From: Hysterangium stoloniferum
Taxonomy: Eukaryota > Basidiomycota > Agaricomycetes > Hysterangiales > Hysterangiaceae
Assembly: GCA_015178975.1 (NCBI GenBank)
Contig: WHVD01000033.1
Coordinates: forward strand, 124,001-188,000
DNA: 64,000 bases
Reading direction: 5' to 3'
In this document: positions 46,948 through 49,783 of the stretch, piece after piece
How positions within the stretch are numbered: position 1 is the first letter of the stretch
Layout: each line of letters begins with the position of its first letter
Position numbers and translations under genes: made by a program
The notes under the pieces: generated by a model
The model's database searches: none
What the model was told of the DNA's origin: nothing
What the model saw: the letters and a program-made list of their open reading frames with translations, nothing else

Positions 46948-47723
46948 ATTTCTACCTTCAACGAGATGACTCTGGAGAATCACGATTTGGCAACCGCTGA
47001 GTCCTACCTTGCAGACGTGGAACTACCACCCTTAGCTTCCCCAAGTGTATTGAGTTCAGAGCAACGCGACTAGATCATTAAGATGGGGATGAGAGATATA
47101 TTGAGGGCGAATATTCAAGAAAGATGGCGCTGTAACGAACCCGGCCATGATTTATGTTATCGGGCCCCCGATGAGCATCACATACAGCTATCTGCAAACC
47201 ATATAGAGGTCTGGGTTGACGAGTTGGTGAGTAAAGTATAGTGCAATTTCCATGTGATCTGTGTCACATTTCAGTGTCAAGGAGAGATGACCTATCATTA
47301 CCCACCCAAGTATCCACTTGAAATTCAGAGAAGAGCGACGAGGGTTTTAGATGATTTCTCGACCTCTTCATTTCACATACCAGAGTAGCAAACGTCACAC
47401 TACCCAGCTTATGACATTCTTGACTTCGGCCTTCATGTTGTGTCCCGGTGTTCATTGGGCAGATAGAAATGTGTCCACTGCGATTACGTCATCACTTTAC
47501 GACGTTTTAGTGAAGTCACCGCTGCACACCAACTCTGGGGTGAGCCTAAATACCCACTCTGACGTGGGAATATTACATTAGGCGACAGCACCCGCATGCT
47601 TTGTAACACATATTCACGTCATTCGCGTTGCATTTGTTTGGTCACACCATCAAATAAAATTCATTTTCACCAAATGACTTAGATCTTCCATGAGGAATGT
47701 CACTTTAGCCCTTTCCTTGACCC

Positions 47724-48040
47724 TGAGTATGTTGTAAGTCTATTACCCGCAAACTATTTGAAGCATTCCTTCAAAGTAACCTGTCAGAGCTACTTGTTCA
47801 AATATAACTCAACCCACGGTCACTTCAAGGGTGAGGTTGCACTGAAGGATGGCTGCCTCATCATGAATGGGAAGAGCATCATTTTCTTTGTGGAGCGCAA
47901 TCCCAGCAATATTCCATGGGGCAAAGTCGGTGCTGATTACGTTGTAGAGTCTACTGTGAGTTGCCATGGTAAAATTTTCCATTTCAATGGTGGACTAAGT
48001 GATGTTTGCAGGGTGTCTTCACAATGATTGAGAAGTATGC
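47724..48040 (+). pseudogene. Captured GAPDH fragment, 5' part
   Basis: Glyceraldehyde-3-phosphate dehydrogenase exons inside the MULE. PEYV is followed by an intron (47734-47787), then the exon at 47788-47955: YLFKYNSTHGHFKGEVALKD, NGKSIIFFVERNPSNIPWG, then KVGADYVVEST. After a second intron (47956-48011), GVFTMIEK follows. In the enzyme this is the NAD-binding domain just before the active site. The intact GT-AG introns show capture from genomic DNA rather than from mRNA. After MIEK the GAPDH sequence breaks off and unrelated sequence follows. Confidence 0.9.
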
Positions 48041-48107
48041 CATGGCTAGTAGTCATGAACAAGTATGAGGTGTGGCTCATAATGGGATGGCAATCTTGCT
48101 GACAATT

Positions 48108-48430
48108 GATCACAGCTGAATTTCAAGTTGCAATTTTGGATGTCATTGCCAACATCATTGCACTTTTGAAGGACACTGATGCCTGGGTTCATTCAGAGGG
48201 AATTTCAGCCCTGGCAAAGCCTTCAGAACAAGATGAGATGCCTCATAATAAGATGGGAACCCAACTGACATTTAATCACAGTCGAGTTTCGACTTGCCAT
48301 TTCAAATGCCATTCCCAACATCATTGCATTTTTGAAGGACACTGACAATGATGTTCGTTCATGTGGAGTGTCAGCTCTGATGAAGCTTTCAGCAACAGGT
48401 GCAGTCACTCATAATAACATGGGAATCTAG
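48108..48430 (+). pseudogene. Captured HEAT/ARM-repeat gene fragment
   Basis: Two repeat units lie in line. The first is AEFQVAILDVIANIIALLKD followed by SEGISALAKPSEQ. The second is VEFRLAISNAIPNIIAFLKD followed by VRSCGVSALMKLSATG. Each is preceded by a small intron-like stretch ending CACAG. Such short HEAT repeats separated by introns are common in agaricomycete genes. The fragment sits inside the GAPDH fragment, between MIEK and VSAHLKGG, so it is a second, separate capture. Confidence 0.8.
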
Positions 48431-48458
48431 CTGAAGTGTTGGACTAACCATGATAATC

Positions 48459-48690
48459 AAGGTTTCTGCACACTTGAAAGGTGGTGCTAAAAAGGTCATC
48501 ATCTTGGTGCCCTCCACCAATACTCCAATGTTTGTCTGTGGTATGAACCTGGACGCTTACGATCCCAAATACACCATTGTAAGTGTTGTTTTTGGTGTAT
48601 TCTAGGCTATCATTTCTGACATCTCAGCCAGATTTTGAATGCATCCTGCACAACCAACTGTCTCACTCCCCTTGCAAATTAGAATATGCT
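48459..48690 (+). pseudogene. Captured GAPDH fragment, active-site part
   Basis: The exon at 48459-48578 reads KVSAHLKGGAKKVIILVPST, then NTPMFVCGMNLDAYDPKYTI, with a GTAAGTG donor. It continues at about 48632-48688 as ILNASCTTNCLTPLAN, which includes the catalytic cysteine motif (ASCTTNC) of the enzyme. After that the homology ends. Together with 47724-48040 this covers the middle of the enzyme. There is no start, no N-terminal Rossmann motif and no C-terminal half, so no enzyme can be made. Confidence 0.88.
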
Positions 48691-49209
48691 CAGTGTCATC
48701 TCACCACCCACCATCATTGGGGACTTCCTTGTGACTCCTGGTCTATTTCCATTCATATTCTAAATGTCGTCTTCCCACTGCCTCCTACTCTGACCACTCC
48801 CTTTTACTGGACTCTACTGGTCAAACTGAGAACCTGAATGAGCTATGCCGCAGCTTGCTTGCAGGTAGCTATTTTGTCTCTGCTGCTTCATCTCATAAAA
48901 ATGTATATTCCACATAATGTTTGGCCAAGCCTGTCCAATAAAATTTCCTTTCTCAGATAAGCTAAATTTTTTGTTGTGCTGTAAAGTTGCATTAAGGACG
49001 ATCAGGAGACAAGTGACGTTCAGCTAAATTTGAATCCACACGGAAGACGACTACTTACTCGTTGCCTGCAACCACTTTGACATTGTTGTATTGCAGAGTG
49101 TTACCGTGTACAATAAGGCCTATCTTCAGTGCACTTTGGGCTGTACTTACACGGAAATGGCTGGCGAAGTATATTCCTGTATCCCCAGGTCATATATTTC
49201 CTTGTCACA
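48691..49209. other. MULE interior without recognised gene
   Basis: Between the GAPDH end and the right TIR. A pyrimidine-rich stretch and a CAATAAAATTTCC-type sequence near 48938 could be a captured 3' end. The rest shows no coding similarity that I recognise. Confidence 0.4.
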
Positions 49210-49783
49210 GAAGATCTGAGTCATCTGGTGAAAATGAATTTTATTTAATGGTGTGACCAAACAAACGCGAAGCGAATGACGCGAATATGTGTTACAAAGC
49301 ATGCGGGTGCTGTCGCCTAATGTAATATTCCCACGTCAGAGTGGGTATTTAGGCTCACCCCCAACTCTGACGAGGTTGCATCAACATTTATCATACGCAT
49401 CGCATGTTATGTATCAGAATTTTATAATTTCTTTCCCATTTTCCGCCTCTTGGATCACATCAACCAGCTGAATGTGGTTTCTTCGCTCATTAGATCCATC
49501 GTAAGGTACATTCACTATATTTCACCTTCCAGCACCCTCTTACATCCGACTATAAACCAGTCTAATTCTGACGCACCCGATTCCATATCGGGATCTCCTG
49601 TGGTCTGGTGAAGGAATAATCGAGTTGACTCTGAAGCTGATAGCTGGATCTTCCGAGCCCGAATTCGCATGTACCACAGTACGCAGCCTCGATACCATCT
49701 CCATTATGGTTCCTCTCCTTTCACGTTGTGACGTAATGCGGGGTTCGACCAACCGGCAATACATCAGTTCATCGCTTGAGCGT

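Follow-up and report, generated by a model that had tools for sequence, protein, structure and literature searches.

How did fragments of several ordinary host genes come to lie, one inside another, between the inverted repeats of a short mobile element that has been copied around the genome of a truffle-like fungus, and to which transposon superfamily does this element belong? The host is Hysterangium stoloniferum (Basidiomycota, Agaricomycetes, Hysterangiales), whose genome is reported among those of ectomycorrhizal Phallomycetidae (PMC7550596). We analyzed a window of 64,000 nucleotides (contig C257:124001-188000) against the 111-Mb, 554-contig assembly; coordinates without a contig or locus name (C and L numbers, respectively) refer to this window. 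An earlier note on the window had proposed a Pack-MULE, with exons of glyceraldehyde-3-phosphate dehydrogenase (GAPDH) and of a HEAT-repeat gene between Mutator-type terminal repeats. We conclude that the element is very probably a non-autonomous derivative of a Mutator-like transposon family with a history of successive captures.

The element, its target site and its internal order

The element (positions 47538-49360) is 1,823 bp long and is bounded by inverted repeats of about 156 bp that are 94% complementary. The inverted arms span 47537-47693 and 49205-49361, the outermost base of each being part of the target duplication; the terminal repeats themselves are thus placed at 47538..47693 (plus strand) and 49205..49360 (minus strand). 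The inner edge of the left repeat resembles the GAPDH-side end of larger relatives more closely than their transposase-side end. The target-site duplication (no strand assigned) has the sequence CCAACTCTG in its left copy at 47529-47537 and in its right copy at 49361-49369, with 9/9 identical positions. The 151-bp repeats and perfect 9-bp duplication described earlier are confirmed, at the arm length and identity given above.

The target site without the element was found in the window itself. A query in which the left flank with one target copy was joined to the right flank without the second copy aligns straight across the joint at eight window places (74-82% identity over 237 or more query bases) and also crosses it in four shorter alignments within the window. 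The empty target site, with one target copy and without the element, is present in these eight related sequences. The transposon is inserted in a member of a recurrent sequence family, further copies of which lie in the window at 5381-6435, 11429-12432, 17993-18231, 20575-20879, 23491-24460, 29626-30659, 35715-36004, 41175-41762 and 62572-63558. This family is a repeated gene or element. Another of its members (63558-63409 and 63190-63127) is split by about 220 bp of other sequence (63190-63409), a few bases at most from the point equivalent to that of the transposon.

From left to right, the element contains the repeat, GAPDH exons 3-5 with introns, a HEAT fragment, GAPDH exons 6-7, a segment called X, a 3' remnant of a transposase region (minus strand), the GAPDH exon 2 region (minus strand) and the second repeat (exon numbers are our own count from the parent gene). 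GAPDH fragment 1 (47695..48059, plus strand) corresponds to positions 2493-2861 of the parent L036 at 85%; its exons at 47709-47733, 47788-47955 and 48012-48034 are separated by introns at 47734-47787 and 47956-48011 and followed by the start of the next intron. The HEAT-repeat fragment (48060..48434, plus strand) sits inside that intron, where 2 bp of parental sequence are left unaligned, and contains two 117-nt exons (48116-48232 and 48282-48398) plus intron sequence. GAPDH fragment 2 (48435..48678, plus strand; parent L036 2864-3107, 88%) contains the end of the interrupted intron, an exon (48462-48578), an intron (48579-48631) and an exon with the motif NASCTTNC (48632-48678). It is followed by the 216-bp segment X (48679..48894, plus strand), a 114-bp remnant similar to the transposase region at its 3' end (48897..49010, minus strand) and the inverted GAPDH exon 2 region (49015..49123, minus strand), 82% to the parent.

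The GAPDH sequence of the element matches PF00044 with 62.6 bits (cut-off 31.7), keeps GT..AG in three introns (54, 56 and 53 nt) and extends to NASCTTNCLTPLA; the earlier reading of GAPDH exons with introns up to the ASCTTNC motif was therefore correct. The two forward GAPDH parts also stand, with the inverted piece to be added as a third, and so does the HEAT fragment between them, whose position can be refined to the inside of a GAPDH intron. The HEAT profile scores 16.9 bits in one of two frames scanned, below the cut-off of 23.5 bits, and gives no match in the other. As read from the alignment, the acceptor of GAPDH exon 6 is one base off relative to the parent and the joined frame breaks there, so the window copy is not expected to give a complete product. 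Of the 27 matches to segment X in the genome, 20 lie where family repeats were found as well; at the best match away from any known family repeat (C1, 80%), no gene was recognized in the 1.4 kb read. An Rfam scan of the window gave no matches.

A multicopy family with a Mutator-like transposase region

A search for further copies, suggested in the earlier note, revealed a multicopy terminal repeat with at least 40 genome matches (a lower bound, with 40 of 112 candidates scored) and two siblings of the window element. Loci with the same flanks were counted once (L017 with L018; L015 with L016, L025 and L026, the latter group at the end read). Twelve distinct insertions have both ends intact, and ten of them show a perfect duplication of 9 or 10 bp (eight at 9/9, two at 10/10); one reaches 8/9 and one has none. 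As a control, mismatched left and right flanks of 14 family rows were paired, and none of 182 pairs reached 8/9, the best being 6. No target duplication was found at the L015/L016 insertion, where the flanks of the two loci are identical, or at L009, L037 and L045, which have two arms with worn ends and are not among the twelve. The remaining loci show at most one end. The siblings on C279 and C235 carry the whole arrangement of the window element between other flanks and are 5.1-6.3% apart; a 10-bp duplication surrounds the C235 sibling, while the left end of the C279 sibling is cut and no duplication was seen there. Given these siblings and the empty target in related sequences, the window element moved as a unit.

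The window copy has no transposase gene beyond its 114-bp remnant, whereas L014 and L017/L018 keep a full-span transposase region. L053 (2.8 kb) consists of repeat, transposase region and repeat, without host-gene cargo and with its own 9-bp duplication. On one strand of L053 we found, in this order, FAR1 (21.1 bits, cut-off 28.1), MULE (PF10551; 14.6 bits, cut-off 27.6) and SWIM (26.8 bits, cut-off 19.6); its FAR1 piece also scores 20.7 bits with PF15299, likewise below cut-off. SWIM reaches 20.1 bits in L014 (cut-off 19.6), and the related family locus L058 has FAR1 above cut-off (29.0 bits, cut-off 28.1) and SWIM below it (16.0 bits), with no PF10551 match in its catalytic pieces. Each of the ten FAR1 matches genome-wide (taken at E up to 1, six of them over cut-off) is followed on the same strand, 0.6-2.1 kb downstream, by a match to the transposase piece T1; most of the 57 T1 matches are without a FAR1 match. 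T1 has no Pfam match, and a search of four transposase pieces against NCBIfam gave nothing related. The nearest outside proteins are two hypothetical proteins of Sphaerobolus stellatus, which match part of the query at 63 and 70%, and one unnamed protein at 55%.

Mutator-superfamily elements (MULEs) have target duplications of 8-11 bp (PMC6446971). The duplications of 9-10 bp and the long terminal inverted repeats, taken together with FAR1 and SWIM, make the family look Mutator-like, with the MULE domain itself below cut-off. The earlier Mutator-type assignment thus stands on duplications, repeats, SWIM and FAR1, its catalytic domain being found below cut-off only, and the relatives with a transposase region, checked for a non-Mutator transposase, look Mutator-like as well. 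We should note that three loci with PF10551 matches over cut-off, the only such matches in the genome, were considered as the transposase source (L040-L042, on C431, C78 and C309) and rejected, as in the stretches compared they share neither the repeat nor the transposase pieces. With open frames of 300 aa they represent a second MULE family.

Could the arrangement have arisen without a single mobile unit, from a GAPDH pseudogene between two separately inserted short repeats? The GAPDH pieces are indeed degenerate and CpG-decayed, with 35 of 84 parental CpG positions changed. Yet the internal arrangement is found again at two further sites whose flanks differ, paired ends bear matching duplications, and related window sequences show the target site without any part of the element; the siblings on C235 and C279 and the empty target refute separate insertions around a pseudogene, which we regard as extremely improbable. 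Capture by a different superfamily (hAT, CACTA, Zisupton-like) or by a Helitron, with a Mutator look due to chance, is also most unlikely, if slightly less so. The 9-10-bp duplications, the inverted repeats of about 150 bp and the FAR1 and SWIM domains argue against it, and Helitrons are not known to make inverted repeats or target duplications. What speaks for it is the catalytic domain below the MULE cut-off, together with gene capture known for Helitrons in Pleurotus and other fungi (PMC4289320) and for hAT elements in ascomycetes (PMC6710886, PMC3538342).

Parents, nesting and order of the captured pieces

Eight PF00044 matches at seven genome places were found. The GAPDH parent lies on C553 and is contiguous across both insertion points; the remaining six (the window copy, C235, C279, C79, C531 and C511) hold family elements or relics, and C511 has the GAPDH-HEAT junction and no family repeat in the stretch read. 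At the DNA level the HEAT piece has 144 genome matches, most of which form clusters on contigs such as C79; the exact donor was not found among them, and the best non-element match is 81% (C79; two such loci were read). The clustered matches on C79, C512, C550, C201 and C176 are large families of HEAT-repeat loci. Sister elements carry a third captured gene, a phosphatase piece with 21 genome matches, whose parent is located on C179 in an open frame of 795 aa. The captured part (417 bp) derives from the N-terminal part and has no Pfam match, there being none over cut-off in that part; the name is based on PF22669 (148.5 bits) in the next frame downstream and on relatives carrying PF22669. We take the parent to be of the inositol-polyphosphate 5-phosphatase kind (Pfam family name Exo_endo_phos2). 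One of five phosphatase copies has a stop in the parental frame.

The search for parent genes proposed earlier thus traced GAPDH to C553, the phosphatase piece of the relatives to C179 and HEAT to the family level. The pieces were captured from genomic DNA, since the three GAPDH introns and HEAT intron sequence are kept. Because the GAPDH parent is contiguous at both insertion points and the HEAT loci lie elsewhere, two captures are supported, and three in the family, which bears out the earlier claim of at least two. A GAPDH-HEAT chimera formed in a chromosome and taken up in one capture is an unlikely alternative, although somewhat less remote than the two weighed above. All copies with HEAT retain one or both of two common HEAT/GAPDH breaks, the pattern that a single event of either kind would leave. 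When the seven GAPDH places and the 144 HEAT matches were compared by place, however, no GAPDH adjoining HEAT was found outside family copies or relics, and a pre-existing locus of this kind, the one finding named earlier as fatal to a double capture, was rejected; a chimera since lost from the genome would escape this comparison. The phosphatase piece is itself evidence of a later insertion into the cargo.

Serial capture can be followed in the larger relatives. L014 and L017/L018 consist of repeat, full-span transposase region (unbroken in L014, interrupted by about 840 bp in L017/L018), X, GAPDH end, phosphatase piece, GAPDH, HEAT, GAPDH and repeat, with all GAPDH pieces in the same direction. 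L027 combines the cargo of L014 with no more than a 3' portion of the transposase region, one of its two ends not being seen, and L037 has the cargo without the phosphatase piece. In L011, L012, L013, L019/L047 and L023 the phosphatase piece is present, and most of GAPDH and all of HEAT are absent; L015, L016, L025 and L021 carry GAPDH without HEAT or the phosphatase piece. HEAT and the middle of GAPDH are replaced in L015, L016 and L025 (C382, C142 and C493) by about 510 bp of other sequence, which may be a fourth captured piece. The window copy and those on C235 and C279 have the GAPDH-HEAT-X-transposase block in inverted orientation with respect to one end. The right HEAT break (position 664 of the parent fragment) is shared by the window copy, L009, L010, L014, L017/18, L027 and L037, and the left one (661) by the window copy, L009, L010, L037 and L039; L014, L017/18 and L027 lack sequence at the left break, in what looks like a shared deletion. 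Phosphatase carriers have a common break at 874-876. Each shared break is best read as one event. Junction microhomology, judged by eye, is 0-3 nt, too short to weigh.

The observed/expected CpG ratio is 0.41 in the element compared with 0.88 in 10 kb of flank and 0.97 in the GAPDH gene, as would be expected if repeats are methylated. Divergence from the parents was calculated without CpG changes. It amounts to 0.082-0.096 for GAPDH in the three window-type copies and to 0.121-0.125 in L014, L018 and L027; for the phosphatase piece it is 0.026-0.034 in these same three and 0.026-0.040 across all eight copies measured. As GAPDH is 12% and phosphatase 3% diverged within the same elements, the phosphatase capture is the younger and capture was serial.

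From these data we infer an order of events, a repair mechanism and mobilization in trans. An element with a transposase region would have taken in genomic GAPDH, from the exon 2 region to the active-site exon with introns, beside its right end. An intron of this captured GAPDH would later have received a piece of a HEAT gene and, in one branch, one of its exons a piece of a phosphatase gene. Such clean and nested insertions are consistent with breaks that were repaired with sequence copied from elsewhere in the genome (template switching) and with subsequent transposition, which we propose as the mechanism. The window lineage would have lost most of its transposase region, and its cargo lies flipped between two right-end-like ends; judged by its arrangement, the window copy, like its two siblings, is a derivative that has undergone deletion and partial inversion. 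The derivative at those two other sites was presumably moved by transposase from larger relatives. As the cargo is shared with larger relatives carrying a transposase region, it was most likely captured by another element and not by the window copy. The label Pack-MULE is fair, and the earlier proposal of one in a fungus is supported by an element that lacks a transposase gene and carries host-gene fragments with introns; the twist is that carriers with a transposase region hold the cargo too.

The copy on C520 encodes BU17DRAFT_93111 (P0063), a hypothetical protein of 244 aa from H. stoloniferum. Aligned to L027 (C520:319847-327000), it covers 268-506, which is flank up to the repeat starting at 504, 690-806 and 857-883 in captured GAPDH, and 1510-2019 in phosphatase and X. 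It is a gene model predicted in a public record, in which an exon from the host flank would be joined to GAPDH and phosphatase exons of the element copy. A tentative extension, which we consider possible and rather doubtful, is that the family is a self-mobile capture platform in which the right subterminal region of a transposase-bearing MULE receives nested, successive captures and feeds chimeric host genes.

Comparison with known systems

Among openly licensed PMC papers, no title or beginning of an abstract dealing with gene capture by MULEs in a basidiomycete was found; PMC10853768 and PMC4522978 contain the terms Pack-TYPE or Pack-MULE in their reference lists only. A single genome here keeps the parents, a cargo-free relative, intermediates and derivatives of the family. 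The nesting, relative age and junctions of each capture are therefore directly readable, and models of gene acquisition by DNA transposons become testable in a fungus.

Pack-MULE-type capture was defined in plants, where the elements have long inverted repeats and 9-bp duplications and hold pieces of several genes, introns included. Those of rice and maize are MULEs minus transposase genes that carry host-gene fragments (PMC6446971), as does the window element. They differ from the present family, which has a fungal host, relatives combining transposase region and cargo, and later pieces inside earlier ones. Animal Pack-TIRs (PMC8277862) share capture between transposon ends and short breakpoint microhomology, for which gap filling and template switching have been proposed; here, in contrast, the fillers are serial and nested and the carrier family is multicopy.

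Helitrons are rolling-circle elements, are not known to have inverted repeats and differ from this family in that respect. Helitron capture in Pleurotus (PMC4289320) nevertheless resembles it as capture of gene fragments in an Agaricomycete. In Rhizophagus irregularis, MULEs are likewise tied to fungal gene multiplication (PMC8647823), there by proximity to expanded genes and here by captured fragments between the repeats. A further fungal parallel is transduplication by hAT and Tc1/mariner elements in Pyrenophora and Pseudocercospora (PMC3538342, PMC6710886), in which a host gene lies between DNA-transposon inverted repeats and is multiplied, with transposase-bearing and short forms coexisting. 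Those elements belong to other superfamilies and their histone H3 is held to be transcript-derived, lacking introns, whereas the cargo described here is genomic and has introns. The fungal cases of gene capture compared here belong to other superfamilies; MULE capture is, as stated earlier, well known in plants and little documented in fungi. The kind of element is known, and the host kingdom, the nested serial capture and the carriers with a transposase region mark this family as a variant of it.
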